Of a stretch of DNA of 42,710 nt, positions 5,459 to 22,083 are shown one piece after another. The notes under the pieces were generated by a model. That model made no database searches. It saw nothing but the letters and a program-made list of their open reading frames with translations, and had not been told where the DNA came from. Position 1 is the stretch's first letter, and each line of letters starts with the position of its first letter. The position numbers were made by a program, and so were the translations under genes. Source of the stretch: Parabacteroides sp. (GTDB lineage: Bacteria; Bacteroidota; Bacteroidia; Bacteroidales; Tannerellaceae); NCBI GenBank assembly GCA_020026285.1, contig JAHHQS010000012.1:1-42710 (forward strand), in the 5' to 3' direction.

Positions 5459-7819
5459 TTATTCACTCTTCAATGCCTTCACCGGATCTATTTGTAACAG
5501 GAAATAAGCCTGAATACAAATGGCTGCTACCGAAACCAACCATATAATCAGGAATGGAAGAATGAAATCGATCATACTAAAGGATACATGATAAGCAAAC
5601 TGCCCAAACCAGTTACTCAACCAATAATAAGTGAATGGTAAAGCCAACAGATAGGAGAGAACGGCATAAATGGTGAACGGTTTATTCAGCAGCCAGAGCA
5701 GCTGCCAGCGACTGGCTCCATGTATCTTCCGGATACTTATTTCACGAATCCTTTGACGAGTTGCATACCACGAAATGGCAAACAAGCCAAACAAAGTAAG
5801 CAGCAGACCTATCACGGCATAGACAGTCAGAACTTGTGTAAAGGAAATTACTTTATTATTCCGCTTCATAAAGTCCCGGTGCAAATCGGTATAACTAAAT
5901 GTTCCTTCATGATTCATTTCCTTCCATATCGTTTCTATCTGAGTCATTGTTTCTTCTTTGTTCTCATTCTTCAAACGGATATCCAGAACATTCGCTTTTT
6001 TTATCTGCTCTGCTTTCGGGAAATAGATTACGGTTGGTGTAATCTCTTTTTCCAATGAATTTATAGGGAAGTCACGCACAACTCCTTCAATTACATAAAG
6101 AGAATCCGCTAAAGAATCAAATTCTCTCAAAGGATGTCCTATCGGATTTGTTTCCCGTGGAACAAGATTTCGAACATAACTTTCGTTCACTAATACGGGA
6201 TAAGCCTGTTCCTGACATATTTCTTTCAGCGGCTTTCCTGCTATCTGTTCTATTCCCATGGTATGCAGATATTGCTCGTCACCATAAAGCATCAACAGGA
6301 AAGTTCGTTTCTCTGTTCCATCCTGTTGTTTCACTTGCAGTTCACGAATAGGAGACTGAAGTATCTGTCCTTGGGAAAGAGAGATAGATTCAATACCTTT
6401 TACCCGTTTCTCCAGTTCCGCTTTTAATGAAGATGCCGGAGGAGCAAATGGATCTCCAATCTCGATACAATCTTTATAACAGGAAGCATTTTCTGTCACC
6501 ATCTGCTGTTGTTTGTAAGCCATCAAAGTAGAAAGAATCAATCCACAGGAAATGGCAAACTGAACGATAACAAGTAATGCTACGAAGAATTGCTTCCGTC
6601 GGCCCGTATAACTGGTTTTATATTCACTATAAGAGAGATGCATCAACCGATGACTCATGTACCAGGCCGGAACTACAGCCATCAATAAAAGGAAGCCGAG
6701 CAGGAGAGGAAGCATCTGCCCACTGAAGAAGTAAGACATTTCCAGTCGCGAACCTAATACAGCGTTAAAGGCCGGTAGACAATCACTGATAATCAATAAA
6801 GAGAACAGGAAAGAAATGGCTACAGTCAGAACCACATCACCAAACAATTGGAAACGAATCTCCTTCATTCCTCCACCCATCAGCTTCTCCACATAAATCA
6901 TCTTCAACTGCTGCATCAGACGGCTCAAGCTCATATTTGTATAATTACAACAAGCAATGATTAGTATCAGCAAAGCTGCCAGCAATCCAACATAAAGCAA
7001 CTGAACCTGTGTCTGCTGGATAAAAGATAACGGCTGCTGCTGAGTTCCCTTCTTATCTACGAAATACAAATCGGACAATGGATCAACATAATACTTTAAT
7101 TGGCCAGGCATCAGGGTAGGAATAGACTGATCGGCGTTTATAGCCTTTACTATCTGTTGTGCCGAACCTCCTTTTACCAGTTTCAGAAAAGCAACTCCGC
7201 CCCAGTAATCTGCAGTCAGACTGGTTAACATATCATATTTCAGAAGCGATTGTGTCCGTTCTTTAAAGACAGCAGTAACCTCCAGAGAACGTTTCTGTTT
7301 ACCAGAGCCAAAATCAATTATCTTTCCCAAAGGATTCTGTTTGCCAAACAAACGATTGGCCACACGCTGACTCAGCGCCACTTTATCCGGTTCGGCAAGC
7401 GTGCGGAAAATATCTCCAGCAACAATATCCATCGGGAAAAAAGAATTTATGGCAGAGTCTACTCCCAGAACAATAAGATCTTTCAACTCTGTTGATTGAT
7501 ATTGAACTGTTGAGGCTTCAAAACTTTGTACCCGCATAAAACCATCCACACCACTAATCTTATCCTTTATCTGCTGCGGAATATCTTTGGCGGCATAAGC
7601 GACTTTTTCTCCTTGTTCCATCGGATTATCTTGACGCAGACAATACACATCATCTTTGTAAGGGTTACCATATTCTATATGGTAATCGTGCATAAAGTAA
7701 GTCAGCAATAAGTTTGTACAAGCCAGTCCAACGGACAGACTGACAACCGCCACCAGAAAGAACAGCTTATTCCTCCACCAGTTGCGTACAATCAGCTTTA
7801 ACAGATTTAATTGTTTCAT
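5459..7819 (-). CDS. ABC transporter permease, double FtsX/MacB-PCD type (permease 3)
   Basis: Second copy from the promoter-distal end of the permease series, about 786 residues. The start at 7819 (MKQLNLLKLIVRNWWRNK) puts the first TM in the family position. A longer start at 7846 would overlap the upstream stop codon by 8 nt and adds only a basic stretch. Two FtsX halves are visible, with coupling segments MIYVEKLMGGGMKEI (diverged) and REISIRKIHGASRWQ, and a C-terminal IDPVKALKSE. It is the most diverged of the four, which suggests subunit specialisation rather than a recent duplication. Confidence 0.9.
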   Translation of the reverse strand: MKQLNLLKLIVRNWWRNKLFFLVAVVSLSVGLACTNLLLTYFMHDYHIEYGNPYKDDVYCLRQDNPMEQGEKVAYAAKDIPQQIKDKISGVDGFMRVQSFEASTVQYQSTELKDLIVLGVDSAINSFFPMDIVAGDIFRTLAEPDKVALSQRVANRLFGKQNPLGKIIDFGSGKQKRSLEVTAVFKERTQSLLKYDMLTSLTADYWGGVAFLKLVKGGSAQQIVKAINADQSIPTLMPGQLKYYVDPLSDLYFVDKKGTQQQPLSFIQQTQVQLLYVGLLAALLILIIACCNYTNMSLSRLMQQLKMIYVEKLMGGGMKEIRFQLFGDVVLTVAISFLFSLLIISDCLPAFNAVLGSRLEMSYFFSGQMLPLLLGFLLLMAVVPAWYMSHRLMHLSYSEYKTSYTGRRKQFFVALLVIVQFAISCGLILSTLMAYKQQQMVTENASCYKDCIEIGDPFAPPASSLKAELEKRVKGIESISLSQGQILQSPIRELQVKQQDGTEKRTFLLMLYGDEQYLHTMGIEQIAGKPLKEICQEQAYPVLVNESYVRNLVPRETNPIGHPLREFDSLADSLYVIEGVVRDFPINSLEKEITPTVIYFPKAEQIKKANVLDIRLKNENKEETMTQIETIWKEMNHEGTFSYTDLHRDFMKRNNKVISFTQVLTVYAVIGLLLTLFGLFAISWYATRQRIREISIRKIHGASRWQLLWLLNKPFTIYAVLSYLLALPFTYYWLSNWFGQFAYHVSFSMIDFILPFLIIWLVSVAAICIQAYFLLQIDPVKALKSE

Positions 7820-7838
7820 GATATATCTTTTTCTTTTC

Positions 7839-10133
7839 TTATTCACTCTTTATCACCTCAGCCGGATTGATTCTTGAAGTTTTCCAGACACGCCAGCCTA
7901 TGCATAGGGCAATCAGTAAAGCAACACCACTGAAAATGACGGCATAAATCCAAACAGCTATTTCTGTCTGACGTATATAACTGACAAGCCATTGTTTCAT
8001 CAGGATGTAACCTACAGGAAAAGCGATCAGTGAAGCCCATACTAAAAGCCATACGTATTCTCGAATGAAGATGCGCTGAATATCTCTTACTTTCGCACCA
8101 TTAACCTTGCGGATGGCAATCTCTTTACGGCGACGTTCACAACTCAACGTAATCATGGAATAGATACCAAAAGCAGCAATAGCCACACAAACCAAAGAGA
8201 CTACCGAAAGCAGCTTGATTAACAGATGTTCGGAGTAAAGGAATTTATCATAATACTCTTCCGTGCTGGTAAAAACGGAATGTACCTCCGGATAATCTTT
8301 CGCAAACATTTCTTCCACCTGCTGTTTGAAAGTTTTCCATTGACCCTCTTTAAAACGGATAATCATCTGAAACACTTCCGAATCCGACCAAGAGACAAAA
8401 GCCAGAGGTGTTGCCGGCAGAGTGGGAGGATTGATATACGGATCCTTCACAATACCAGATATTTTCACTCTTTTCTCTCCAACAAATCGATCTATCGTTT
8501 TTCCTACCGGATTGCTCATCCCCAATGCTTTCACCGCCGCCTCGTTCAAGACAACCGACTGCCGGTCACCTTCTACAGGAATAGTCCCTTCTTTCAAAGT
8601 AATCTCATAGAAAGGAATCAACACATGACCTTTTTGTATCACACGGATTCCGGGTGATGAAACGGAATCAACTTTGCCCTCCCAGCTTGAAGGAGTATAA
8701 CTCATCCTCACCACACTTGGGGCCAATGCCACCGTATAAGGAATAATAGTATCTACTGAAGCCATGCCGGACAAACGATGGATAATTTCATCCAACTGAC
8801 CTGCCGGATAGACATCCAACGTAGCGATACCGCTTCGTTTCCATCCCATGTCTCCTTTCTGCAACAGAAAGATTTGTTTCATCAAAACAACCATACAGAA
8901 CATCATCAGGATACTAACTGTCAATTGGAAGAAAACAGCAATCTTACGTATCCTGCTTTCATGAATAGTTCTGTTTGGACGAGCATAATGACGAACTAGA
9001 AATATCAATAATACGACGGTCAGTATCCATATTGCCGTCCAATACAACAACAGAGGACTAGTGACTGATCCACTCACTCCCGACAATTCGGTAAATGCCG
9101 GAAGGCTCCATTCTATCAGTAATAAAGACAGACACATGGCCATCATAGTCATGACACTATATTCTATGATAAACATGGAAAAAAGTTTTCCCCACGTTGC
9201 TCCACATACTTTACGCAAGGCGATTTCCCGTTGACGAATCCCCAGGCGAATAACAAATATGGACAGATAATTAAACAGTGCCGCCAAAATGATGAGCAAT
9301 CCTACGGCTGCAAACAGAACGAGATAATAAAACTGAACCGGATTCTTTTCATTCATCATGGAATGATGAAATTCGCTCAACGGCATCAGTTTCATCTCCT
9401 GTAAAGACTTTTTCATCAAAACATCCTCTCCGTCATACCCCTGCATCTTCTTTTGAAAAGCCATCGGATCGACGCCTTTCCGGAGCGTCAGCACAATCGA
9501 ACCGACACCGACATTTTCCATTTTCTTCACTCTTTCAAAACGTGCGCAATCGTACCATACATCGAAAGAGAAAAAACTATGGGACAAGGACTTGAAAACC
9601 GCACCCACCGTGTAGGTACTCCCTTGTACATCCTGAAAAGTCTGTCCGAGTACATCTACCGTTCCAAACAACCGCAAGGCACCCTCCTCGGTCAAAGCAG
9701 CTTTATCATTGACATGAAGAAAATCGAACGAGCCTTCTTTCAGCTCCAGACCAAACCGGTCTATGAAAGTTGAATCTGCCTGCAAAGATCGCAGCTCACC
9801 CACTTTCTTTTCGTTCACCTTCAAATTGTCTCCTTCCCATACAGCCTGTATGTTGGAAGATTCAATCTCCGGATACATTTCCTGCAGACGTTGACGAAAA
9901 ACATTGGAAAAGTTGATTTCACAACCTCTTACATTCAACGAGTTGGGACTATAGAGTATATACATCCGGTCTGCCTCTTTATGCTGAGTATCGTAGGTGG
10001 ATTCATATTCAATCCAGATCAATGACAAAGCAAAACAGACAAAGCCTGCAGCTAAACCTAATATACTGATAATCGATTGAGTTTTATACCTCATCAAATT
10101 ACGTACCGCTATTTTCAAATAATGTATTATCAT
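7839..10133 (-). CDS. ABC transporter permease, double FtsX/MacB-PCD type (permease 2)
   Basis: FtsX/MacB-type permease of 764 residues, slightly shorter than its neighbours. It begins MIIHYLKIAVRNLMRYKTQ with TM1 at about 20-42. Both halves retain coupling segments (REIALRKVCGATWG, KEIAIRKVNGAKVRD) and the chain ends INPAEVIKSE. The gap to the upstream permease is 31 bp. Its close match to permeases 1 and 4 in the second coupling segment and C-terminus points to tandem duplication. The role is presumed export or envelope mechanotransmission; the substrate is unknown. Confidence 0.92.
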   Translation of the reverse strand: MIIHYLKIAVRNLMRYKTQSIISILGLAAGFVCFALSLIWIEYESTYDTQHKEADRMYILYSPNSLNVRGCEINFSNVFRQRLQEMYPEIESSNIQAVWEGDNLKVNEKKVGELRSLQADSTFIDRFGLELKEGSFDFLHVNDKAALTEEGALRLFGTVDVLGQTFQDVQGSTYTVGAVFKSLSHSFFSFDVWYDCARFERVKKMENVGVGSIVLTLRKGVDPMAFQKKMQGYDGEDVLMKKSLQEMKLMPLSEFHHSMMNEKNPVQFYYLVLFAAVGLLIILAALFNYLSIFVIRLGIRQREIALRKVCGATWGKLFSMFIIEYSVMTMMAMCLSLLLIEWSLPAFTELSGVSGSVTSPLLLYWTAIWILTVVLLIFLVRHYARPNRTIHESRIRKIAVFFQLTVSILMMFCMVVLMKQIFLLQKGDMGWKRSGIATLDVYPAGQLDEIIHRLSGMASVDTIIPYTVALAPSVVRMSYTPSSWEGKVDSVSSPGIRVIQKGHVLIPFYEITLKEGTIPVEGDRQSVVLNEAAVKALGMSNPVGKTIDRFVGEKRVKISGIVKDPYINPPTLPATPLAFVSWSDSEVFQMIIRFKEGQWKTFKQQVEEMFAKDYPEVHSVFTSTEEYYDKFLYSEHLLIKLLSVVSLVCVAIAAFGIYSMITLSCERRRKEIAIRKVNGAKVRDIQRIFIREYVWLLVWASLIAFPVGYILMKQWLVSYIRQTEIAVWIYAVIFSGVALLIALCIGWRVWKTSRINPAEVIKSE

Positions 10134-10164: not shown

Positions 10165-12546
10165 TTATTCGCTCTTTATCACCTCAGCCGGATTGATTCT
10201 TGCTGCTCGATTTACCTGCCAGAACAAAGTTCCTATAGAAATTACTGCTACAATCAGTAAAGCTAACACAAAGATACCGATTCCTATCGGAGCTTTGACC
10301 GCAAAGCCGGCGGTGTACTGATGGATAATCAGGATGGCCAAAGGAATAGATACCACAAACGAAGCAGCCAATAGCAATACATACTTGCGGAACAAAAGCA
10401 GATAAATATCTTTCAGCTTGGCTCCATTTACCTTGCGGATTCCTATTTCACGATAACGCTGACGGATATCAAATAAGGACAGACCAAACAATCCCAGACA
10501 GGAAATTAATACGGCTATTACGGCAAAGGTTATATAGACCGATACCATAATCCGGTCGTTTTTATAAAGAGCACGAACCTCATCTTCCACGAAAGTATAA
10601 TCAAAGTCCTCTATTCCGTAGACATCTTTCTCCACTTCACGCAGATAAGCCATAACCTCTTTCTGCTTTCCCGGTGTAAAAGCAATATGATACAGGTCAC
10701 CGGAACTACCGAAGCCTATCTGAAACAAAGTCGGTTTGACTCCTTCCGTCAGATGTCCATTGTAATAATCATCCATTACTGCAACTATGGGCTGATAAGC
10801 ATCTGCTTGTCCGACACGCAATTTATTATCTTCTGCAATACGGGCATTATCCAGATTCTGAAAGCCAAACGCCTTCATGGCTGCCCGATTCAGTACATGT
10901 ACAAACCGATTCTTCTGAATTTCTTCTTTATCAATCTTACCTTCCAGTAACTGGATTTCATACATTTTGAAGAAGTCTGGAGTCATATAACGATATAGTA
11001 AGTCTACCTTCTTCCCATTCTCTGCCGTAAAAGACATTTCAAAACCTGGATTCACAATTGTTTCATAACCAGCTATCCAATATTGGATATGCGGACAGGC
11101 TTCTATTTTATTATCAATAGCCTGGATTCGCTGCTGCCGAGCCTTGACAGCTTTCATCGCTTCCTCTCCACGAAGCTTATATATATCGTCCGATTCGTGA
11201 ACCAACTCGGCATATAATATATTCTCCGTACGGAAACCTGGCTCTGTTTCCAGAAACAGATTCATCTGACGGTTGAAATAGAAGGAGAGAATCACAATCA
11301 GCATGCAGAACAAATATTGAACAAAAAGGAAGGACATGCGTATTCGTATGGATCGGGAATCTTTGGCAATAGAATGAATACTTTCAACCGGTGTTATCCG
11401 GCCATATTTAATCACCGAATAGACAGACGTCAACAAAGGCAACAGAAGAAGAAGTCCCAAAGTAAGCTGCCAGTCGAAAGCCGTATAGACAAAGTCATAA
11501 TGGAAAGTCTTTTCCCATAATGGCTGAGACAGTTCCACTATCAGCCAGGCTATGAACAGGGCTCCACTAATCAACAGGAAGGATTCCAGCCAGATCTGCG
11601 TAAACAGACCGGACAGATGGATTCCGAATACACGTTTCAAGCCATATTCCTTGCCACGCTTCTGCGAAGAAACCAGATATAAATTCACAAAGTTGATAAC
11701 TCCTGAAAGGAAAAGCAACAGACAAACGCCTGCCAGCATCTGTACATAAGCACGTACGCCATAGTTGTAAATCGTATCTGAATTCAATACATCTGCCTGC
11801 CAGTAAAGTTCTTTCAATGGAATAAAGGAAAGTGTATACTGGCGCGTATCCATATCTTTATAATGAGGATTCACCCAACGAGAGATACTTCCCAATCTGT
11901 TTATCTCAGCCATATCCGTATTCGGCATAAAGCGGATAAACTGCTGTGGCATACGTCGCCAGTTTTCTGCTTCGGCATAAGGATAAATCACATCAAAGCA
12001 AAGCGAAGTTTTGTTTTCCGGTTCAGCTAAAACGCCACCCACAGTCATTTCCTTTCCACCATTATAACGGATTCTCTTTCCTATGGGATTCTCTTTTCCA
12101 AACAGTTTGCGGGCAAATGGTTCCATCAACAATACGGATTCGGAAGTATAATCCAGGGTTCCTTGTACACAACGATAGGGGAAAAGCTTGAAGAAACAGC
12201 TGTCTGCACCAATTACTTTAGCCGGATAACGATGTTCATTCAAGTCGATGGTTCCCGAACTGGTAGGCTTTATCATCGTCATGGTTTCAATATATCGAGG
12301 ATCAATATAGCCACTATCACTGGGAGCATCACGTAAAGCAGCCAGTGCAGCACTTCCTTCCATGTGGTGAACAATGGCATAGATTGATTCACGGTCGGCA
12401 GAATGTGTATCAACAGTCAGTTCCCGGTGAATATATCTTACCAGCATAATGCAGCAAGCCAGGCTGAACGACAATCCCAGCAGATTAATAACCGTATAGG
12501 CTTTAGAGCGCATCAAAAAGCGCAGGGCGTACTTGAATGTCTTCAT
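10165..12546 (-). CDS. ABC transporter permease, double FtsX/MacB-PCD type (permease 1)
   Basis: First gene of the permease-ATPase unit, about 793 residues from the ATG at 12546 (MKTFKYALRFLMRSKAYT, the usual N-terminus of this family). An ATG at 12558 would add only MRDI. TM1 lies at about 17-37, two FtsX halves follow (coupling segments KEYGLKRVFGIH and REIGIRKVNGAKLKDI), and the C-terminus is INPAEVIKSE. A sigma-54 type promoter at 12585-12600 predicts transcription starting about 28 nt upstream of this ATG. The unit is therefore predicted to be silent until activated by an NtrC-type regulator, most likely the one encoded at 18204. Confidence 0.92.
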   Translation of the reverse strand: MKTFKYALRFLMRSKAYTVINLLGLSFSLACCIMLVRYIHRELTVDTHSADRESIYAIVHHMEGSAALAALRDAPSDSGYIDPRYIETMTMIKPTSSGTIDLNEHRYPAKVIGADSCFFKLFPYRCVQGTLDYTSESVLLMEPFARKLFGKENPIGKRIRYNGGKEMTVGGVLAEPENKTSLCFDVIYPYAEAENWRRMPQQFIRFMPNTDMAEINRLGSISRWVNPHYKDMDTRQYTLSFIPLKELYWQADVLNSDTIYNYGVRAYVQMLAGVCLLLFLSGVINFVNLYLVSSQKRGKEYGLKRVFGIHLSGLFTQIWLESFLLISGALFIAWLIVELSQPLWEKTFHYDFVYTAFDWQLTLGLLLLLPLLTSVYSVIKYGRITPVESIHSIAKDSRSIRIRMSFLFVQYLFCMLIVILSFYFNRQMNLFLETEPGFRTENILYAELVHESDDIYKLRGEEAMKAVKARQQRIQAIDNKIEACPHIQYWIAGYETIVNPGFEMSFTAENGKKVDLLYRYMTPDFFKMYEIQLLEGKIDKEEIQKNRFVHVLNRAAMKAFGFQNLDNARIAEDNKLRVGQADAYQPIVAVMDDYYNGHLTEGVKPTLFQIGFGSSGDLYHIAFTPGKQKEVMAYLREVEKDVYGIEDFDYTFVEDEVRALYKNDRIMVSVYITFAVIAVLISCLGLFGLSLFDIRQRYREIGIRKVNGAKLKDIYLLLFRKYVLLLAASFVVSIPLAILIIHQYTAGFAVKAPIGIGIFVLALLIVAVISIGTLFWQVNRAARINPAEVIKSE

Positions 12547-12584
12547 AATATCACGCATTTTACTCTTTTTCTACGAAAATAAAA

Positions 12585-12600
12585 AGCAAAAACTATGCCA
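12585..12600 (-). promoter_or_regulatory. Sigma-54 (-24/-12) promoter of the permease-ATPase operon
   Basis: The minus strand reads TGGCATAGTTTTTGCT, which is GG-N10-GC and fits the RpoN consensus TGGCAc-N5-TTGCa/t. The predicted start lies near 12574, just ahead of permease 1. The paired dyads lie 55 bp further upstream, the geometry of an activator-dependent sigma-54 promoter. Confidence 0.85.
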
Positions 12601-12655
12601 AATCAATAACTCATTGATTGATAGCCAAAGACAAAAATAAGGTTTTGTAAACGAT

Positions 12656-12690
12656 GTGCGTTCCCGCACAAAAATCGTGCGATAATGCAC
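12656..12690. promoter_or_regulatory. Tandem-dyad upstream activating site (copy B)
   Basis: Two dyads lie with centres 21 bp apart: GTGCG-TTCC-CGCAC (12656-12669, perfect) and GTGCG-ATAA-TGCAC (12677-12690, one mismatch). They are separated by AAAAATC. The same arrangement, with the same spacer, occurs at 18133-18167. Two turns of helix between dyads is typical for cooperative NtrC-family binding. It is most likely the binding site of the regulator encoded at 18204. Confidence 0.8.
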
Positions 12691-12783
12691 GCTTATCTGT
12701 TCTGAAAAGGGAAAAGGTTTCTAATTCTTCTAAAAAGAGATTCCGGTTATTCACCGAATAACTGGACTTATGGGACCTACAGA

Positions 12784-12815
12784 ATTGTCTTTCTTCGAAT
12801 AAAATCCTATCTTTG
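12784..12815 (+). promoter_or_regulatory. Possible upstream promoter of higBA
   Basis: ATTG (12784-12787), 20 nt, then TATCTTTG (12808-12815) fits the Bacteroidota -33/-7 pattern and points towards the toxin-antitoxin genes. It would give a leader of about 113 nt. It competes with the closer element at 12923. The remainder of the 12559-12931 intergenic stretch holds the sigma-54 promoter and dyads, and I see no gene. Confidence 0.35.
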
Positions 12816-12898
12816 AGTAAATCGAGTGGGAGAGAGATAAATTCCATGACCCTAGCGCCATAATCTATCTGAAAGAAACGTTAATCAGTCTCCCAAAA

Positions 12899-12930
12899 GT
12901 TGCAATATATTGAAACAAATCATACCTTTG
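12899..12930 (+). promoter_or_regulatory. Proximal promoter of higBA
   Basis: GTTG (12899-12902), 20 nt, then TACCTTTG (12923-12930) matches the Bacteroidota consensus except one base in the -33 box. The -7 element ends one base before the ATG at 12932, so a transcript from here would be leaderless or nearly so. Confidence 0.5.
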
Positions 12931-12931
12931 C

Positions 12932-13264
12932 ATGAAAAGAAAAATCAGAACGTACGGTGGTTATTTCGAGTGGTTCATGGCCACTTTAAGCGAAAAGGAA
13001 CAACAGAAAATAGAGTTTGGACTGCTTCTTTTAAAAACTCAAGACAGAATGCCGAGTAAATTCGTCAAATTAATCAGAAATGGGTTGTACGAATTACGTA
13101 CCGAATACATGAATAACATTTATTGTGTATTCTTTATCTTCGACAAAGGACAAATTGTTGTCCTTTTTAATGGATTTCAAAAGAAATCTCAGAAAACACC
13201 AATTTCTGAAATAGAAAAAGCTTTAAGAATCAAGGAGGAATATTATGGAGACAAACAATCATAA
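12932..13264 (+). CDS. higB: HigB-like toxin (RelE/ParE superfamily, phage Gp49-like)
   Basis: A 110-residue member of the RelE-superfamily Gp49-like toxins, which cleave mRNA, usually in association with the ribosome. The family's basic N-terminus (MKRKIRTYGGYFEWFM), the KFVKLIRNGLYELRTEY core strand with its conserved Arg, and VVLFNGFQKKSQKTP near the C-terminus are all present. The toxin gene precedes the antitoxin and overlaps it by 20 nt, the usual HigBA order. It sits as a plus-strand island inside an otherwise minus-strand efflux locus, which suggests a later insertion. Confidence 0.88.
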   Translation: MKRKIRTYGGYFEWFMATLSEKEQQKIEFGLLLLKTQDRMPSKFVKLIRNGLYELRTEYMNNIYCVFFIFDKGQIVVLFNGFQKKSQKTPISEIEKALRIKEEYYGDKQS

Positions 13265-13550
13265 AATAGTTGATTACGATGCCGTATTAGATGATAAATA
13301 TGGTAAAGAAGGAACACCTAAAAGAGCTAAATTCGAAGAAGATGCCTATGCTTTCTATACCGGACAAATTCTACAGGAGGCTCGTAAAGAAGCAAAAGTC
13401 ACACAGGCAGAACTGGCAAGCCGTATCTGTTCCACCAAATCATATATCTCCAAACTGGAAAATGGAGTAATTGTCCCAAGTGCTGCCACCTTTTATCGAA
13501 TCATCAATGCCCTTGGCATGCAAGTGGAAATCACGAAGGTGATAGGATAG
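13245..13550 (+). CDS. higA: HigA-like antitoxin (XRE-family HTH)
   Basis: A 101-residue antitoxin. An acidic N-terminal segment (VDYDAVLDDKYGKEGTPKR) is followed by an XRE helix-turn-helix (about 43-95: TQAELASRICSTKSYISKLENG). Such antitoxins bind and neutralise their HigB partner and repress their own promoter. The start overlaps the end of higB by 20 nt, implying translational coupling. Complete and apparently functional. Confidence 0.9.
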   Translation: METNNHKIVDYDAVLDDKYGKEGTPKRAKFEEDAYAFYTGQILQEARKEAKVTQAELASRICSTKSYISKLENGVIVPSAATFYRIINALGMQVEITKVIG

Positions 13551-13566
13551 AGGAATTAAAATATAA

Positions 13567-13635
13567 AGGCACGCTATACAATATTTCTTTGGGACAGAAA
13601 AAGCTATTAAACTTTTAAAGAAAATAAAAGAATGA
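13567..13635 (+). pseudogene. Possible 3' remnant of a DUF3990 gene
   Basis: Reading in frame from just after a TAA at 13564, the sequence encodes RHAIQYFFGTEKAIKLLKKIKE and a stop. The stop overlaps the next ATG as ATGA. This resembles, from memory, the C-terminus of DUF3990 proteins, which are commonly encoded directly upstream of DUF3791. No start codon or upstream body exists, so if the identification is right the gene has been truncated, with only its tail left. Tentative; the match is by eye and short. Confidence 0.35.
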
Positions 13636-13853
13636 ACAATGATATACAATTTCAAATAGAATGTTTGTCTACGGAACTAACATCCATGCTAATGGAAGAA
13701 TATAACTGGGACATGAAAAGGGCTTTAGATGAATTGTATGCTTCTGAAACATATCGACGTCTGAATGATCCGGAATGTGGTTTATACTATGAAAGTGCAG
13801 TATACGTCTTTTCTTTCATTAAAAATGAAATAGAACAAGGTGTCGTCAAGTAA
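13632..13853 (+). CDS. DUF3791 family small protein
   Basis: A 73-residue protein matching the DUF3791 pattern: an N-terminal helix (FQIECLSTELTSMLMEEYNWDMKRALDELYASETYRRL), then DPECGLYYESAVYVFSFIKNEI. Function is not established. It usually neighbours DUF3990, predicted by others to be ADP-ribosyltransferase-like, and is thought to form a toxin-antitoxin-like module with it. Here only a DUF3990-like tail remains upstream, so the gene may be an orphan antitoxin or immunity partner. It follows higA by 81 bp and may share its transcript. Confidence 0.75.
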   Translation: MNNDIQFQIECLSTELTSMLMEEYNWDMKRALDELYASETYRRLNDPECGLYYESAVYVFSFIKNEIEQGVVK

Positions 13854-13885
13854 AAAAGATAAATACTCCTTCGATATAAAACATG

Positions 13886-13924
13886 AATCCTCCCACAAGA
13901 GTATATTCTTCTTATGGGAGGATT
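13886..13924. terminator. Hairpin between convergent genes (likely bidirectional terminator)
   Basis: Arms at 13886-13900 and 13910-13924 (AATCCTCCCA... / ...TGGGAGGATT) pair over 15 bp with one mismatch. They lie between the end of DUF3791 (plus) and the end of the redoxin lipoprotein (minus). T runs on both sides are weak. Confidence 0.6.
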
Positions 13925-13952
13925 GATATTTTAAAGACATTCACTCTTCCTT

Positions 13953-15161
13953 TTACAAAAGTCTTTTTATTTCGTCTTCAATTTCCTTATCCGAATTCTT
14001 TACTGTATAACCTTTCAACTTTTTCTGAATTATACGGTCTTTATCGATAATATAGAACTGAGGAACTCCGCTTCCTGCCTGATAATCCTTGATTAATTCA
14101 GCAACAGTCTCCTTATCGGCTGTTAGAAAACGATAATTGATATCATGCTTTTTGATATAGGCTTCACAAGAGGATTTCTGTCTTCCCCATGTTTCGACAG
14201 CCACAATCTCCAATTCTTCCTTACTATACTTCTCTCTTAACTGATGAAGGAATGGAGTGGAAGCTCCACAAGGTCCACAACCGATTCCGGTAAGCTGTAA
14301 TAATATAACCTTCGACTTCAAATCTTGTAGCGTAACGGATTTATCGTTGATATCCGAAAGTTTCCACTCTGGAGCTTTCTTGCCAGTCATGTCCACCAAA
14401 CGTTTTCTGCGATCTTCACCTATTTTATGAAGAGTATAATCTTCCGGATAATAATTCTCAGCAACAATTCGACCTTTATCCGAAGGATTTAAAACAAAAT
14501 TTGAACATGTTTTCTCACTAATACTATGTTCCATTTCCCGACGGATACGATAAGGCAAATTATTCTTCTTCGAAATCCAGATTTTATACACAGAAACAGG
14601 ATCTTTTATGTATGGATTCTTAGGCATATAACAAGGTTTACCGAAGAATTCCACCTGCATAGGCATGTTAATTGTCAACTCCATTAAATAATCCTTTTCC
14701 TGATCTTTCAACAAAAGAGAGATGCTATCAGTTGTTGTCAACGCATAATCTAAAACAGCTTTCGTATAATAGAAGAATTCCGGCATTACCAGACGGAAGG
14801 ATAATATATTCTTACGACTGAAATCATTAATCAACACTTCCTTTTCTTCCGTATTCAAATTGAATTTAACCTCTCCATCATATCCATATTTAAGATTCTT
14901 AAAATCCGTATCATTACTTACCAGGAAAGAACTTCCAACTTCTTTGTCTTGAAGATTATTATGCTCATAGACCTCGACTGGATCCGTATAAACAGGATTT
15001 TTATCTCCCGGTTCCCACGCTTGTGATACACAATGATAGGTCACAGATTCAACCTTGTTCATATTTTGCAATACTTCAGTAAGATATTCCTTATCTGTAC
15101 GAGTACCACAGCTGACAAACAAAACCATGCCAATAATAGCTAATAGTGATTTTAATCTCAT
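13953..15161 (-). CDS. Redoxin-domain lipoprotein (TlpA-like, CGPC)
   Basis: Predicted lipoprotein of 402 residues. Its signal is MRLKSLLAIIGMVLFVSC with lipid-modified Cys18. A long N-terminal region (about 20-260) resembles the LolA/outer-membrane-lipoprotein-carrier-like sensor region seen in many Bacteroidota redoxin lipoproteins, but I cannot assign it firmly. The C-terminal thioredoxin fold (about 265-402) has GIGCGPCGAS with Cys295/Cys298, and GVPQFYIID as the cis-Pro strand. It is probably a thiol reductase or oxidase at the envelope. It lies in the efflux locus on the same strand as hlyD, but an 18-bp hairpin separates the two, so co-transcription would need read-through. No clear promoter of its own. 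Confidence 0.85.
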   Translation of the reverse strand: MRLKSLLAIIGMVLFVSCGTRTDKEYLTEVLQNMNKVESVTYHCVSQAWEPGDKNPVYTDPVEVYEHNNLQDKEVGSSFLVSNDTDFKNLKYGYDGEVKFNLNTEEKEVLINDFSRKNILSFRLVMPEFFYYTKAVLDYALTTTDSISLLLKDQEKDYLMELTINMPMQVEFFGKPCYMPKNPYIKDPVSVYKIWISKKNNLPYRIRREMEHSISEKTCSNFVLNPSDKGRIVAENYYPEDYTLHKIGEDRRKRLVDMTGKKAPEWKLSDINDKSVTLQDLKSKVILLQLTGIGCGPCGASTPFLHQLREKYSKEELEIVAVETWGRQKSSCEAYIKKHDINYRFLTADKETVAELIKDYQAGSGVPQFYIIDKDRIIQKKLKGYTVKNSDKEIEDEIKRLL

Positions 15162-15191
15162 ATTCTTATTTTAGTTCTAATATTCAAATAC

Positions 15192-15237
15192 AAAGTACGG
15201 CAATATTTAAGTAGTTTACTAAATATTGCCGTACTTT
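15192..15237 (-). terminator. 18-bp perfect hairpin between hlyD-type and redoxin genes
   Basis: Arms at 15192-15209 and 15220-15237 (GTACGGCAATATTTA core) are exact reverse complements with a 10-nt loop. Read from hlyD on the minus strand, the stem is followed by TTTGTATTTG. It is the likely end of the tolC-hlyD transcript or an attenuator ahead of the redoxin gene. Confidence 0.7.
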
Positions 15238-15287
15238 TCTTCATTAAAAAAATCATCTTTCCAATTATAAAAAAGATGATATATTTT

Positions 15288-16538
15288 TTACTTCAAGATT
15301 AATTCTTCAACGCCACCAAAGGTATCATACCCAGTAGTGATAACACAATCGCCAGGTTGCAATCCTTCCGTGATTTCATATTGTCTCGGATTCTGTCGGC
15401 CTATTACAATCGGGACCTTGACTGCTTTGGTCTTATTTGCATCCAATTTATAAATCCATTGTCCACCTGTCTGCTGATAAAAGTTTCCACGTGGAACGAT
15501 AACCGCCTTTTCGGGCTGACCTAATTCGATCTGGACTCTAAAACTTTTACCAACTCGGACATTATCAGGTTTGTCTCCTGTAAAGATCAAATCAACTTCA
15601 AACATACGTTCTTTTACTTCCGGAATCACCTTACTTATCTTCAAAGGGAACCGTTCTCCTTGATAAAGGATACTGGCTGGAAGTCCATTCGTTACACGAT
15701 CAATATAATATTCACTCAACGAAGTATGAATCTTGAACTGATCCATCACCTTCACTTCGGCTATATTTTCTCCTGCTGCCACCTGTTGTCCAGGTGTTAC
15801 TTTCACGAAACTCAACTGTCCATCAATAGGAGAACGAACAATCAGGTCTTCCACTCTTTGACGGCTACGTATCAGTTTCTTCTGTTCCCTGTCACGATCA
15901 TTCTGAAGCAATTCCTTTCGGATTACAGTCATAGAAGAATCACTCTGCAAACTTTTCAACTTTAATCGAGTCGATTCCATCTTATATCGATATTCATCTT
16001 CCGAAACCTCCAGCTGTGCCTTGCTCCGAACGCCCATCTTATATTCCTCCTTCTCCAACGAGAAACTTTTTCGTATTTTGTTAAGCTCATATTCAGCTTC
16101 CAATGACTGCTGTTTCAGAGTCAGACTTTTCTGTTCCATTTCCAAAGCCTTTTCCTGATAGGATATGCGCTGTTTTTCCCATTCATCCTGCTGATCTTCA
16201 ATTTCACGTATCAGATTCGGATTGGTCAAAGTCAGAATAGTATCACCTTTCTTCAATAGACTTCCATCTTCTCCAATGATACGGTCCACATTTCCAGCCT
16301 CTCGTGTATTAACTTTAATAGTCAGTATCGGATGGATTATACCTTCAACATCTACATACTCCATAAAATCACTTTGACAAACTTCTTCTATCCGAATATT
16401 CTCTGCATCAATCCGTAACCTACGAGGTCCGAACGAGAGTACAATCACATAAACCAAGGCACAAAACAAAACGAATCCACCTAAAAGATAGTGGCGATAA
16501 CGAATGTACCAGGGTTTCTTTTCCAATTTGATATCCAT
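15288..16538 (-). CDS. HlyD/MacA-family periplasmic adaptor (membrane fusion protein)
   Basis: Adaptor subunit of 416 residues linking an inner-membrane ABC transporter to a TolC-type channel. One TM anchor lies at about 15-36. It is followed by a biotinyl-lipoyl half (VDVEGIIHPILTIKVNTREAGNVDRI), a long charged coiled coil (about 110-225), the second lipoyl half (DLIVRSPIDGQLSFVKVTPGQQVAAGENIAEV) and beta-barrel/membrane-proximal domains. The gap to the tolC-type gene is 20 bp, so the two form an operon from the sigma-54 promoter at 18061. No permease lies directly downstream. The cognate ABC parts are probably the 2331-12546 unit, which carries the same predicted promoter and operator. Confidence 0.93.
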   Translation of the reverse strand: MDIKLEKKPWYIRYRHYLLGGFVLFCALVYVIVLSFGPRRLRIDAENIRIEEVCQSDFMEYVDVEGIIHPILTIKVNTREAGNVDRIIGEDGSLLKKGDTILTLTNPNLIREIEDQQDEWEKQRISYQEKALEMEQKSLTLKQQSLEAEYELNKIRKSFSLEKEEYKMGVRSKAQLEVSEDEYRYKMESTRLKLKSLQSDSSMTVIRKELLQNDRDREQKKLIRSRQRVEDLIVRSPIDGQLSFVKVTPGQQVAAGENIAEVKVMDQFKIHTSLSEYYIDRVTNGLPASILYQGERFPLKISKVIPEVKERMFEVDLIFTGDKPDNVRVGKSFRVQIELGQPEKAVIVPRGNFYQQTGGQWIYKLDANKTKAVKVPIVIGRQNPRQYEITEGLQPGDCVITTGYDTFGGVEELILK

Positions 16539-16558
16539 AATATACTATTCTATTTATT

Positions 16559-18031
16559 CTATATTTCCGGTAAAATTTCACTTAGAGGACAATCCTTCAG
16601 GAAATCATATTGTGTCATACTACGTAAACCATAATATAAAGTCCAATATGTTTTCATGGCAGCCATATAATTCCTACGAGCGGAATCCTTTTCTGTTGTA
16701 GCAGCGTTAAAATCGAGAATGGAAGACTTTCCTAACAGATATAATTTGCGAGCTACATCATAACGTTTCTGCGCAGTCTCATCTGTTTTGGCCGCAACCT
16801 TCACCTGATAAGCCTGCAGATTAAACTGACGCACCATTTTATGAACATTTAATTCAAAATCGGTCATGGCTTGTTCTACTTGCGTATCAACCAGTTCCAT
16901 TCGAGATTTAGCTACACGAACTTTTCCTTTTCCTCGTCCCCAATCGAGAATAGGAATAGCCAAAGACAAACTGACGTATTGCTGGTCCAATAAATTCCGG
17001 TAAGAAGAGCGTAAATTGTTCCCGGTCTGAGACAATCCAAATTGAAGATAAAGATCAGCTTTCAATCCCCGTGAAGCCTTGGCTTGAGCCAATTCACTTT
17101 TACTTTCCAGTTTCATTCTTTCGTACGTCTCTATTTCAGGACTATGTTCATAAGCACATTGTAATGCCTTGGCCAAAGGAACTTCAAAAGCAACAATATC
17201 TTTATCTTCGGGTATAACTTCTATTTGTTCATTTTCACGGATTCCCAAAAAGGAACGAAAAACAAGAACAGCTTCTTCAACTTCTATTTGAGCCTTCATC
17301 ACATTAGTTTCTTCAGTCAGTTTATTTACCTCCAGTTGAAGCATTTCGTTCTCGGTAATACTACCGATCTCGTAACGACCACGTGCATATCTAAAAAGCG
17401 TATCTGCCGATGCATAATTAGATTGAGCAATCATGAGATTATTTTGAGCAGTAGCCAGATTGAAAAAGAGTTCACAAGTCTTTGAAGCGATTAACTCCAA
17501 TGTCTCTGCATAACTCTTCTTTGCTTCCTGAAAACGTACCGGTTCAATTTTTTTATCCCATTTCAAATAATTATATCCAAAAACAGACTGACGATAACCA
17601 ACCATTACCGGCTGTGTATTGAATGCTTTCCGGTCAGAACTGAACTCATCCATACGTTGTGTAGCCGTTTTGAGAAAAAGATTACCTCCCGTAAACCAAA
17701 TATTCTGACTAATATTTACAGCCAAATCCGTACTAAGCTGATTCTGTCGGATAAATTCTTCTGTACCATCTGGCTGAGTTACCTTATTGATCTGTCTATT
17801 CAGAAAAGGAGAGGAAGTAAGACTTACAGCCGGTAGGTAATTTGCCCGGAAGGCACGATAGTTCCAATAAGCCGCTTTAAAAACATGTCTGGCCGACTTG
17901 GCTTCAGGCGAAAATTCCTGTGCCATCTGAATAGATTGTTCTAATGTCAGTACGTGTTTATTCTGTGCATTCATTATTAACGAGAACATACACATTAAAA
18001 CTAACAAATATTTAAAAAGACTTTTTTTCAT
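16559..18031 (-). CDS. TolC-family outer-membrane efflux channel
   Basis: TolC-type outer-membrane factor of 490 residues. Its signal peptide is cut near residue 22 (MKKSLFKYLLVLMCMFSLIMNA). The family's duplicated helical coiled-coil pattern is clear (AAYWNYRAFRANYLPAVSLT; second repeat SELAQAKASRGLKADLYLQFG), ending in MAAMKTYWTLYYGLR. It forms a trimeric beta-barrel and periplasmic tunnel for tripartite efflux with the HlyD adaptor encoded 20 bp downstream. First gene of its operon: the predicted sigma-54 start near 18050 leaves a leader of about 20 nt. Confidence 0.93.
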   Translation of the reverse strand: MKKSLFKYLLVLMCMFSLIMNAQNKHVLTLEQSIQMAQEFSPEAKSARHVFKAAYWNYRAFRANYLPAVSLTSSPFLNRQINKVTQPDGTEEFIRQNQLSTDLAVNISQNIWFTGGNLFLKTATQRMDEFSSDRKAFNTQPVMVGYRQSVFGYNYLKWDKKIEPVRFQEAKKSYAETLELIASKTCELFFNLATAQNNLMIAQSNYASADTLFRYARGRYEIGSITENEMLQLEVNKLTEETNVMKAQIEVEEAVLVFRSFLGIRENEQIEVIPEDKDIVAFEVPLAKALQCAYEHSPEIETYERMKLESKSELAQAKASRGLKADLYLQFGLSQTGNNLRSSYRNLLDQQYVSLSLAIPILDWGRGKGKVRVAKSRMELVDTQVEQAMTDFELNVHKMVRQFNLQAYQVKVAAKTDETAQKRYDVARKLYLLGKSSILDFNAATTEKDSARRNYMAAMKTYWTLYYGLRSMTQYDFLKDCPLSEILPEI

Positions 18032-18060
18032 AACCGAACAATTAATACAAAAAATTAACT

Positions 18061-18076
18061 AGCAAACACCATGCCA
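18061..18076 (-). promoter_or_regulatory. Sigma-54 (-24/-12) promoter of the tolC-hlyD operon
   Basis: The minus strand reads TGGCATGGTGTTTGCT: GG-N10-GC, a near-ideal RpoN site. It shares TGGCAT and TTTGCT with the permease-operon promoter at 12585. The tandem dyads begin 56 bp upstream. Confidence 0.88.
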
Positions 18077-18132
18077 AAACATCAATCCTTTATTAAACAG
18101 TCATATACGCTAATACATCCATAAGAAACAGT

Positions 18133-18167
18133 GTGCGAACTCGCACAAAAATCGTGCGTTATCGCAC
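18133..18167. promoter_or_regulatory. Tandem-dyad upstream activating site (copy A)
   Basis: Two perfect dyads, GTGCG-AACT-CGCAC (18133-18146) and GTGCG-TTAT-CGCAC (18154-18167), have centres 21 bp apart with spacer AAAAATC. Both are in the divergent region between the tolC-type gene and the NtrC-type regulator. Binding here would activate tolC-hlyD and, because the array ends about 24 bp before the regulator's -7 box, could also repress the regulator gene. Confidence 0.85.
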
Positions 18168-18190: not shown

Positions 18191-18198
18191 TACCTTTG
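18191..18198 (+). promoter_or_regulatory. -7 element of the response-regulator gene
   Basis: TACCTTTG fits TAnnTTTG and ends 5 bp before the ATG at 18204, predicting a near-leaderless mRNA. No TTTG box is seen at the proper distance; that region adjoins dyad copy A. Confidence 0.5.
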
Positions 18199-18203
18199 CG
18201 TAT

Positions 18204-19568
18204 ATGGAAGGAAAAGGGAAAATATTAATCATCGACGATAACGAAGACGTTCTATTCGCTTTGAATCTTTTACTTGAACCAATTGTTGAAAAGGTTAAAG
18301 TAACAACACAACCAAGTCGAATCGAATTTTTTATGAATTCATTTCATCCGGATGTCATCCTTTTGGATATGAATTTTAAAAGAGATGCAGTCAGTGGGCA
18401 GGAAGGATTTGTTTATCTGAAGCAGATTCTTTCCATCGATCCACAAGCTGTAGTTATTTTCATGACAGCTTATTCTGATACGGACAAGGCTGTAAAAGCG
18501 ATCAAAGAAGGAGCAACCGATTTCATTTCCAAACCTTGGAATAATGAGAAATTATTGGCTACTCTTTCAACAGCCATCAAGTTAAGTCTATCACGTAAAG
18601 AAGTAGATCGACTACAAGAGAAGATGACAGCTATAAAAGATGAAGATTCTTTGCCTGAGCTTATAGGAGAATCACCAGCGATGCTTCAAGTGAAAGAGAC
18701 CATCTATAAACTGGCAGAAACGGATGCCAACATTCTGGTAATGGGAGAGAACGGAACCGGGAAAGATCTGATAGCCCGTATGTTGAAATTCTATTCTCCA
18801 CGAAAGGATGACGTCTTTATTACTATCGATTTAGGAAGTATTCCCGAACAACTTTTCGAAAGTGAACTATTTGGTTACGAGAAAGGTGCTTTTACAGATG
18901 CCAGGAAATCAAAACCAGGACGAATGGAAACAGCATCGGGAGGAACCTTATTTCTGGATGAGATAGGGAATCTGTCTCTTCCTATGCAAGCTAAATTATT
19001 AACAGCTATTGAGAAGAAACAAATCACCCGATTGGGAGCAGTCGATTCAATTCCTATCAATGTCCGTTTAATTTGTGCTACTAATGCAGAATTACATAAT
19101 CTGGTAAAAGAAGGTTCTTTCCGACAGGACTTGCTTTATCGTATCAACACCATCGAAATCCACATTCCTCCACTTCGCGAACGCGGTAATGATATATTAC
19201 TTCTAGCCGATTATTTCTTGAAACAATATAACCGTAAGTACAAAAAAGAAATCAGCGGTTTCACTAAAGATGCCAATCAGAAACTTCTGAAATATCACTG
19301 GCCGGGAAATGTTCGCGAACTTCAACATGTATTGGAACGTGCCGTTATTCTGAATGAAAGTACCATGCTGCACCCGAATGACTTTCCTCTTTATCCTCAA
19401 AAAGAAGAAAAGAAAGAGAACAACGGAGAACTTAATCTGGAACAAGTAGAAAAGAAAACCATTGAACGAGCCCTTCGATTAAGTAATGGCAATATGACTT
19501 ATGCTGCTGAACTTTTAGGAATAACACGTTTTTCCTTGTATCGTAAAATTGAAAAATTAGGACTATGA
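18204..19568 (+). CDS. Sigma-54-dependent response regulator (REC-AAA+-Fis, NtrC family)
   Basis: A 454-residue transcriptional activator. The receiver domain has Asp11/Asp12, phospho-acceptor Asp55 (VILLDM), Thr88 and Lys110. The AAA+ domain has Walker A GENGTGKD (181-188), the sigma-54-contacting loop as GAFTDA (228-233, in place of the classical GAFTGA) and Walker B TLFLDE (248-253). A Fis-type helix-turn-helix closes the protein (about 419-452: NGNMTYAAELLGITRFSLYRK). Phosphorylated oligomers would bind dyadic sites and remodel RpoN holoenzyme. The dyads in its own upstream region and before permease 1, each paired with a sigma-54 promoter, are its probable targets. It overlaps the kinase gene by 4 nt (ATGA). 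Confidence 0.95.
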   Translation: MEGKGKILIIDDNEDVLFALNLLLEPIVEKVKVTTQPSRIEFFMNSFHPDVILLDMNFKRDAVSGQEGFVYLKQILSIDPQAVVIFMTAYSDTDKAVKAIKEGATDFISKPWNNEKLLATLSTAIKLSLSRKEVDRLQEKMTAIKDEDSLPELIGESPAMLQVKETIYKLAETDANILVMGENGTGKDLIARMLKFYSPRKDDVFITIDLGSIPEQLFESELFGYEKGAFTDARKSKPGRMETASGGTLFLDEIGNLSLPMQAKLLTAIEKKQITRLGAVDSIPINVRLICATNAELHNLVKEGSFRQDLLYRINTIEIHIPPLRERGNDILLLADYFLKQYNRKYKKEISGFTKDANQKLLKYHWPGNVRELQHVLERAVILNESTMLHPNDFPLYPQKEEKKENNGELNLEQVEKKTIERALRLSNGNMTYAAELLGITRFSLYRKIEKLGL

Positions 19569-20851
19569 AAACTTATCTCTGGTATCTGATTGCTCATGTT
19601 GCCGGAATTCTTTTTTCATCCTGGCTGACTATTCTCTGTATACAGAAAGAATTGAAGATAAGCACTTTTGCCTGTATTATTCTGATTATTGCAATCTGTG
19701 TAAGTCTTTACCTTCTTCAACTGAGGCAGATTCGAATATGGAGACACATTGTAGATTGTATGGCACAGAATGAAGTTATCCAGATTGTCCGTACTCCTTT
19801 TAAGGATAAAGCTATGCAGCAACTGGCAAATGATACTTCTGCGGCCTTAAAATCTTTTCGTGAACAATTACTAAATGAAGAAATTAAACATCAGTACTAT
19901 GAGAACCTACTGAATAAAGTGGATACAGCCATGATTGTAACAAATCTGCAGGGTGAAATCGATTGGATGAACAAGGCTGCAACTGAGTTACTGGAAAATG
20001 AAAAGAGACTTCCTGATGAAGTAATTGAAGCTTTACAGAAAAAAGAGGACATTGTTCACTATCACAAACAGTCTCTTGTTCTAGACCTGGCAATTTCCTC
20101 AACATTAATCTATATGAAAGGATATAATCGAAGAATCATCAGTCTGAAGAATATTCATTCAACCTTGGAACAGACAGAAATGGAAGCCTGGCAAAAACTG
20201 ATCCGTGTACTGACTCATGAGATTATGAATTCGATTACTCCCATCATATCTTTAGCCCAGACGTTAAGTGAACGCGGACTCACAAACCCAAACGACGAAA
20301 AGACACAGGCTCAAATACAACAAGGACTGAATATTATACACAGAAGAAGTAAGGGATTGCTTGACTTCGTAGAAAATTATCGAAAGCTGACTCGTGTAGC
20401 TCCTCCTGTTAAAGTAAATATTAAAATAAAGGATTTTTTCAATGACTTGAAGCGACTCTGCAATAATCCGTCTATTCATTTCTATTTATCCGATGATAAT
20501 CTAATCTGTTCCGTTGATCGCTCACAAATGGAGCAAGTCTTTTTAAATCTATTGAAGAATGCCCAGGAAGCGTGCTCTTCCATTTCAGAACCAAATATAG
20601 AAGTAGGAGCAAAGACGGTACGAGACCAACTGATCTTTACTATTCAAGATAATGGGGAAGGAATTTTTCCCGAAGTTATAGAACGTATATTCATACCATT
20701 CTTTACCACTAAAACAAATGGTTCCGGAATAGGTTTAAGCCTATGCAAGCAGATTATAACTTTTCATGGAGGACAGATTTTTGTGAAATCGGAAAATGGG
20801 AAAGGGACCTGTTTCCAAATAGTGTTTCCCGCAACAAATGCCTATCTGTAG
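19565..20851 (+). CDS. Membrane sensor histidine kinase (NtrY-like, partner of the sigma-54 regulator)
   Basis: A 428-residue kinase. Two closely spaced TM helices (about 5-25 and 29-50) leave almost no periplasmic loop, so sensing is probably in the membrane or cytoplasm. A PAS-like segment follows (about 110-200: DTAMIVTNLQGEIDWMNKAATELL). The H-box is LTHEIMNSITPI with phospho-acceptor His218, and the ATPase domain has N-box NLLKNAQEA, DNGEGI and GSGIGLSLCK. It should phosphorylate Asp55 of the regulator, to which it is translationally coupled. The signal is unknown; envelope stress or an efflux substrate would fit the regulon. Confidence 0.93.
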   Translation: MKTYLWYLIAHVAGILFSSWLTILCIQKELKISTFACIILIIAICVSLYLLQLRQIRIWRHIVDCMAQNEVIQIVRTPFKDKAMQQLANDTSAALKSFREQLLNEEIKHQYYENLLNKVDTAMIVTNLQGEIDWMNKAATELLENEKRLPDEVIEALQKKEDIVHYHKQSLVLDLAISSTLIYMKGYNRRIISLKNIHSTLEQTEMEAWQKLIRVLTHEIMNSITPIISLAQTLSERGLTNPNDEKTQAQIQQGLNIIHRRSKGLLDFVENYRKLTRVAPPVKVNIKIKDFFNDLKRLCNNPSIHFYLSDDNLICSVDRSQMEQVFLNLLKNAQEACSSISEPNIEVGAKTVRDQLIFTIQDNGEGIFPEVIERIFIPFFTTKTNGSGIGLSLCKQIITFHGGQIFVKSENGKGTCFQIVFPATNAYL

Positions 20852-22059: not shown

Positions 22060-22083
22060 TGTAATAATTTGTTTTTTTCTCAA

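Follow-up and report, generated by a model that had tools for sequence, protein, structure and literature searches.

Paired dyad operators and predicted sigma-54 promoters before both halves of a split efflux system in Parabacteroides

Genes and control regions of the split efflux locus

The DNA analysed here is a stretch of 42,710 nucleotides from Parabacteroides sp. (contig JAHHQS010000012.1 of assembly GCA_020026285.1), referred to as the window, and its subject is an efflux system whose genes lie in two units, each preceded by a predicted sigma-54 promoter and a tandem-dyad operator. The first unit, on the minus strand, encodes a TolC-type outer-membrane channel (16559..18031, OEP domain) and a HlyD/DarC-like periplasmic adaptor (15288..16538; HlyD_3, with RND_mfp over its cut-off). 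The second, on the same strand, encodes four permeases of the MacB/FtsX type at 10165..12558 (FtsX and MacB_PCD), 7839..10133, 5459..7846 and 3042..5429 (these three by domain match), and a LolD/MacB/DarD-like ABC ATPase (2331..3005, domain matches). Channel, adaptor, MacB-type permease and ATPase are all encoded together, as in tripartite ABC efflux systems of the MacAB-TolC/Dar type. Adjacent to tolC, on the plus strand, lie the genes for an NtrC-type response regulator (18204..19568) and a sensor histidine kinase (19565..20851, domain match). The regulator has the receiver, Sigma54_activat and HTH_8 domains of an NtrC-type activator (PF00072, 9.7e-19; PF00158, 2.9e-63; PF02954, 8.2e-13), and its recognition helix reads FSLYRK. 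This gene content agrees with that given in the initial annotation of the window, which had also proposed that one activator switches both halves of the system through a specific tandem-dyad operator; the proposal is supported by a layout that is kept in relatives, by co-occurrence of the operator with the regulator and by covariation of the operator with the recognition helix.

Control region A (18061-18167) occupies the space between the minus-strand tolC-hlyD unit and the plus-strand regulator-kinase genes, and control region B (12585-12690) precedes the permeases and the ATPase. Operator A (18133..18167) consists of two GTGC-N6-GCAC dyads at 18133-18146 and 18154-18167, and operator B (12656..12690) of two dyads at 12656-12669 and 12677-12690; in both copies the centres are 21 bp apart and the spacer is AAAAATC, as had been described. 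The more stringent form GTGCG-N4-CGCAC, under which the dyads had been reported, is exact in three of the four, the fourth (12677-12690, GTGCGATAATGCAC) having one mismatch. Promoter A, that of tolC-hlyD, is TGGCATGGTGTTTGCT (18061..18076, minus strand), with a predicted start near 18050 according to the -12 convention, and promoter B, that of the permease-ATPase unit, is TGGCATAGTTTTTGCT (12585..12600, minus strand), with a predicted start near 12574. Both contain GG-N10-GC within the consensus TGGCAY-N5-TTGCW, and the gaps between operator and promoter are 56 bp (A) and 55 bp (B). These two promoters are the only exact matches to TGGCA-N6-TTGC-W in the window, which has 79 places with up to two mismatches. 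A single dyad is not rare, since five with up to two mismatches were found against 3.45 expected in shuffles; what goes beyond chance is the pairing of the dyads and the distances.

Geometry and placement of the operator-promoter block

The geometry of the block has been followed in two sets of loci. The protein-only set contains 80 loci fetched by the regulator protein, window included, and is free of pattern selection. In this set, exact dyad pairs within 80 bp (n = 30) have a spacing of 21 bp in 26 cases and 20 bp in four, with no other value, and all 23 exact TGGCA-N6-TTG elements within 200 bp of such pairs stand at 55 (four), 56 (17), 57 (one) or 58 bp (one). The set includes 51 regulators of the [FY]xLYRK type for which 250 bp or more of upstream sequence could be read, after exclusion of two with too little; in five loci no regulator was recovered. 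A pair with up to two mismatches stands in the 900 bp before 44 of the 51, and 38 of these 44 have a promoter element as well, with gaps of 56 bp in 25, 55 in eight, 54 in two, 58 in two and 57 in one. The set of all loci was partly chosen with the 21-bp pattern, and its sites were required to have a gap of 50-62 bp, up to two mismatches in the operator and up to one in the promoter. It comprises 58 distinct operator-promoter sequences, some of them from close genomes, with a spacing of 21 bp in 51, 20 in six and 22 in one, and with gaps of 56 bp in 44, 55 in nine, 58 in three and 57 in two. When the limit on the gap was lifted, 30 of 32 exact promoter elements still stood at 55-58 bp, the other two being at 66 and 77 bp, about one and two helical turns further. 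For nine of 41 exact pairs in the same set no exact element lies within 200 bp, the background being 7.2e-5 per position. A distance of 20-21 bp between centres, close to two turns, together with gaps of 55-58 and rarely 66 or 77 bp, is the arrangement of a two-dyad enhancer on one helical face.

The dyads and the promoters are also conserved at positions that were not used for selection. The fifth base of the dyad is G in 48 and 36 of 51 sites, and the tenth is C in 42 and 42 of 51. The four central bases had been described as differing, with conservation confined to what a dimer pair would contact; among relatives this centre is not free, and the inner two bases are A or T in 48-51 of 51 sites per position; the window dyad with a TTCC centre is an exception to this preference. 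In the promoter, a T precedes TTG in 53 of 58 sites, and only 10 of 58 have the final C of the -12 element, so the GG-N10-GC pattern fits both window copies and is too strict for the relatives, in which it lies within 120 bp of a pair at two loci only (L013, L016). It was substituted by TGGCA-N6-TTG once the intergenic sequences had been read, and the retention of this core partly reflects selection on it. At one locus (L130), three dyads stand in a row upstream of the regulator, the promoter-nearest being degenerate and the clean pair lying about two turns farther. A de novo scan for tandem repeats recovered other repeats at several loci, for example L002, L101, L134 and L135.

The block has been placed relative to transporter genes in 40 fetched regions and the window. 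Most sites precede tolC. Others precede a permease (the window, L088, L094, L095, L105 twice, L106 twice, L109, L110 and L112) or an ATPase (L087, with a gap of 66 bp, L111 and L113). The units are separated by other genes or a long gap in the window and in L111, and the second site of L109 and L110 is internal to a contiguous cluster. In two genomes whose regulators are 75-77% identical (G128 and G113), tolC, hlyD and those permeases that were read lie contiguously behind one site (L077, L078), and each genome has one pair, even at one mismatch. When a fixed rule was applied to the regulator-bearing loci, among which pattern hits are over-represented, 40 of 48 transporter units were seen to begin with the block. 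At L074, L090 and L093 a pair is present and the promoter element absent; the contig of L074 also carries a 20-bp pair with the element (L047), and the exact pair of L093, in genome G051, was discarded as a chance occurrence because it lies inside an open frame and has no promoter element.

Between the two halves of the window system lie genes that had been overlooked: a TlpA/ResA-like thioredoxin-family gene (13953..15161, minus strand), downstream of hlyD and of uncertain membership in that unit, and a Gp49/RelE-like toxin with an HTH_3 antitoxin-like partner (12932..13550, plus strand). TlpA-like genes stand on both sides of the permease cluster (1048-2202 and 13953-15161). At another locus (L096, 4001-4035), a site with promoter element lies upstream of a Thioredoxin_8 gene at a distance of over 500 bp, and a second TTGGCACGGTTTTTGTAA stands directly before that gene (about 3500); TlpA-like and thioredoxin genes may belong to the regulon. 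At about 15192-15238, in the stretch that separates hlyD from the thioredoxin gene, an inverted repeat whose ends are T-rich on either strand was noticed by eye and resembles a two-way terminator. A search of the window against Rfam gave no match.

The regulator and the reading of the dyads

The operator occurs together with the regulator. The regulator protein was used in a scan that returned 20 loci (best identity 72%) in Phocaeicola, Bacteroides, Tannerella, Dysgonomonas, Symbiothrix and bins of Bacteroidales, Bacteroidaceae and Dysgonomonadaceae, together with three poor matches (L018-L020) that were not used for conclusions; the upstream sequence of L015 is shared with L014. In the 15 further genomes to which these 20 loci belong, a pair with up to one mismatch is found in 11. 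The family of G002 (Bacteroides sp. GM023) was then searched in 151 genomes, 51 of which match the regulator at E <= 1e-100 and 33 of which have an orthologue, defined by a line set by eye (E below 1e-140, 53% identity or more). The exact pair GTGC-N6-GCAC-N7-GTGC-N6-GCAC, a pattern containing no promoter and no gene, occurs in 22 of the 151 genomes and its reversed control in none. It is found in 21 of the 33 genomes with an orthologue and in one of the 118 without, namely G051 with its discarded pair (Fisher 2.7e-16, a value that overstates certainty because the genomes are related and not independent), in 21 of 51 against one of 100 at the search's own threshold, and in none of the 18 genomes having only more distant paralogues. 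The search with one mismatch is noisier, with pairs in 39 of 151 genomes, 12 of them without the orthologue, and with matches of the reversed control in five. Across the order, the exact composite pattern is specific but insensitive: in a sample of 393 genomes, at least 11 of which have an LYRK orthologue, it occurs in one, before an open frame with an OEP (TolC) domain.

Another line of evidence is the covariation between the last part of the regulator's recognition helix and the upstream dyads, for which 92 of 98 regulators were classed. A GTGC pair (spacing 20-22 bp, within 600 bp) accompanies 33 of the 52 regulators with R in LYxK and none of the 40 with N, A, S or T at that position; several of these 40 carry other tandem dyads, about 21-22 bp apart, and for many none was found. 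In the order-wide sample, 140 genomes had a match and 29 new loci were read. All 10 readable [FY]xLYRK regulators among them have a GTGC pair with up to two mismatches (three fit GTWC equally), whereas none of 18 TSLYRR regulators has a GTGC pair and seven of the 18 have a GTWC pair. An earlier table, in which a narrow filter had left only three TSLYRR regulators, gave no significant contrast (p 0.11) and was replaced by the count of 18. In NtrC, the residues R456, N457 and R461 contact DNA. The clades are few, and the covariation is strong but not many times independent. Mainly because the operator letters covary with the recognition helix, the regulator at 18204 is named as the probable binder of the dyads, and it is very probably the protein that acts on them.

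Related regulators have been seen with dyads of other sequence. The TSLYRR regulators (L183-L200), 57-61% identical to the window regulator, have GTACG or GTTCG dyads in the seven cases mentioned, and at six of their loci (L184, L187, L188, L191, L195, L196) the best pair lies 66-67 bp from a TTGGCATA-type element. QTLYNK regulators have TGTCCAA/TTGGACA or GTCTAAT/ATTAGAC dyads, many with a promoter element 54-56 bp on, and PTLYAK/PTLYSK regulators (L144, L146, L156) have TGTAAAG/CTTTACA tandem dyads nearby. Paralogues at other efflux genes (L123, L127-L129, L143, L147, L149, L152, L159-L163) have tandem dyads of their own (TGTCCAA/TTGGACA, GTCTAAT/ATTAGAC and similar) at a spacing of 21-23 bp, followed after about 54-56 bp by an element resembling TGGCA-N6-TTG.

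On its outer side, operator A faces the regulator's own gene. A box of the form TAnnTTT[GA], which we take to be the Bacteroides housekeeping -7 element, is present at 18191..18198 on the plus strand (TACCTTTG), with 23 bp between it and the outer end of operator A. Of 33 divergent sites, 23 have this box at 22-23 bp from the edge of the operator (TAnnTTTG alone at 23 bp in 16 and at 22 bp in three), and of 24 sites without a divergent regulator four have it at the matching distance. The distance from operator to regulator start varies from 36 to 405 bp and that from operator to box is nearly constant. Operator A abuts the regulator's housekeeping promoter, and therefore the regulator probably controls its own synthesis, whether by repressing or by helping it. 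In G270, one pair without a sigma-54 element lies by the regulator (L172) and another with the element lies before tolC (L171), an arrangement that fits two separate jobs of the operator; pairs without a sigma-54 element (L012, L044, L046, L047, L172, L177) are perhaps purely autoregulatory sites.

The kinase has a hydrophobic N-terminus (about residues 7-58); this stretch, spanning about the first 58 residues, has room for a short loop at most, and from hydropathy the protein appears to have no large periplasmic domain. Because only a short loop is left, its signal may be sensed in or at the membrane or via the exporter. A gene of the choloylglycine (bile salt) hydrolase family adjoins the kinase gene (20965-22083).

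Mechanism, rival explanations and known systems

From the domains and the layout described above, we infer a mechanism in which the kinase at 19565 would phosphorylate the regulator at 18204, whose Fis-type C-terminal domain would bind the pair of dyads from the same side of the helix, the centres being two turns apart. The AAA+ ring would be assembled from there, at about 90 and 110 bp before the start, and would open the sigma-54 polymerase waiting at TGGCA-N6-TTG, sigma-54 being the factor predicted to act at these promoters in the window organism. Since tolC-hlyD and the detached permease-ATPase unit both carry the operator-promoter block, they would be switched on together despite the split of the operon, and the regulator at operator A would also govern its own housekeeping promoter. 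The mechanism as a whole, with one regulator, two blocks and joint switching of a split efflux system, is in our judgement highly likely, and the predicted function of the system is the efflux of an envelope-active compound.

Several observations weigh against this mechanism. The F and T of the GAFTGA loop are the sigma-54 contacts of such activators; in the window regulator and in 72 of 98 regulators this loop reads GAFTDA, which keeps F and T, and GAFTGA itself is found in eight of 98. RpoN (Sigma54_DBD) was detected in 14 of 16 relative genomes, and the two in which it was not (G001, G014) both have sites with promoter elements. Seven of the 51 regulators described above have no pair within 900 bp (L003, L004, L009, L010, L033, L043, L049; for all of these except L004 and L010 a site exists elsewhere in the genome), and the six with a pair listed above as perhaps autoregulatory have no sigma-54 element 50-70 bp beyond it. 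Six of the 33 genomes with an orthologue have no 21-bp pair even at one mismatch; five of them have a 20-bp pair, and G099, on a short contig (L046), only a 20-bp pair with one mismatch. Eight of the 48 transporter units do not begin with the block: four stand-alone ATPase-like hits (L003, L004, L005, L113), L012, where the pair is present and the promoter reads TTTGCAC, and the units of L113 permB (behind a block-bearing ATPase unit), L117 permA (degenerate) and L118 permA. The relatedness of the genomes, noted with the Fisher value, belongs here as well.

Other explanations of the same elements have been considered. The dyads might bind another factor, such as a repressor of the efflux genes, while the neighbouring NtrC-type regulator acts elsewhere, and perfect dyads are indeed also typical of repressor operators; yet in several clades the operator letters change with the recognition helix and the layout does not, the pair keeps company with the orthologue as counted above, and the site is where sigma-54 activators bind and not over the sigma-54 promoter, which makes this explanation very unlikely. 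Slightly less probable is that copy B arose as a recent duplication of the whole control region A, a by-product without selection for joint control. The promoter-operator had in fact been called duplicated, and the motifs, including the AAAAATC spacer, are shared, but outside the motifs a literal duplication finds no support: identity between the two linkers is 47%, where random site pairs give 37% +/- 8% with a 95th percentile of 49%, and the outer flanks agree at 35% and 32% of positions. AAAAATC is moreover common in copy A of close relatives (L077, L078, L079, L111), other genomes also have second sites, each time before different genes, and these are not copies of the first, with linker identities within a genome in the range of random site pairs.

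The least probable of these explanations is that the operator mainly autoregulates the regulator gene and that the role of sigma-54 is secondary. The nearly constant distance between operator and -7 box at divergent sites, the six pairs upstream of regulators without a sigma-54 element and the presence of L172 besides L171 in G270 speak in its favour, but copies free of a regulator (L088, L100, L102, L105, L106 and the second sites of L109-L111) keep the gap of 55-58 bp and stand before permeases, an ATPase or a distant tolC, and the -7 box is rare at sites with no regulator opposite.

The system of one activator and two blocks can be compared with known ones. The NtrC/glnA enhancer of enteric bacteria has two dyads, placed roughly 100 bp before a promoter of the -24/-12 class; its GCAC-type half-sites are contacted by arginines in the recognition helix of NtrC, and the synthesis of the regulator is controlled from the same region. 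The window system resembles it in having a two-component AAA+ activator with a Fis-type domain, paired dyads and GCAC-type half-sites, and differs from it in half-site order, 21-bp spacing of the centres, the nearly fixed gap of 55-58 bp, the efflux targets, the GAFTDA loop and the phylum, Bacteroidota. It is an NtrC-type enhancer system, ordinary in kind and unusual in precision: sigma-54 enhancers are usually tolerant of distance, and an operator-promoter distance that is nearly fixed is unusual for them. As to the exporter, FtsX/MacB-type permeases, a LolD-like ATPase, a HlyD-type adaptor and a TolC channel are shared with MacAB-TolC and with the darobactin exporter DarBCD, from which the window system differs in its four long permeases and its sigma-54 control; the equivalog cut-offs of DarBCD (NCBIfam) are not reached (DarD 301.4/375 bits, DarC 153/450 and DarB at most 102.5/700, the DarB score covering three of the four permeases). 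Sigma-54 promoters have been predicted before COG0577 permeases in Bacteroidia, in what was called the first link of sigma-54 to this ABC family (PMC12316311, 2025). The prediction concerns the same promoter class, permease class and bacterial class as the system in the window, and neither an activator nor an operator is named in the parts of the source considered here, nor a spacing, a split operon or any link to tolC-hlyD; those considered from another paper contain nothing that bears on a sigma-54 efflux operator (PMC10434189). No characterised sigma-54 operator of Bacteroides was found in a literature search, which is weak evidence of absence, as subscription journals were mostly outside it.

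With these results a specific operator, its very probable activator and a promoter can be named for a predicted sigma-54 system of the Bacteroidota, for which the prior literature found, as far as the parts considered go, offers promoter predictions and no pair of activator and operator. They make prediction of the regulon feasible by a simple pattern search, show one and the same switch on parts of an efflux machine that have become detached, and supply a natural set of regulators and operators for testing how Fis-type domains read DNA. An evenly balanced possibility is that the Bacteroidales hold a large family of insulated sigma-54 efflux circuits, in which tandem dyads about two turns apart are phased to the -24/-12 promoter and, for a large part of the GTGC clade, also to the housekeeping promoter of the regulator, and in which mainly the half-sites and the matching helix residues differ. 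If so, a readable protein-DNA code would keep paralogous regulators apart, and a split operon would be re-wired by the gain of one 35-bp operator plus a promoter.

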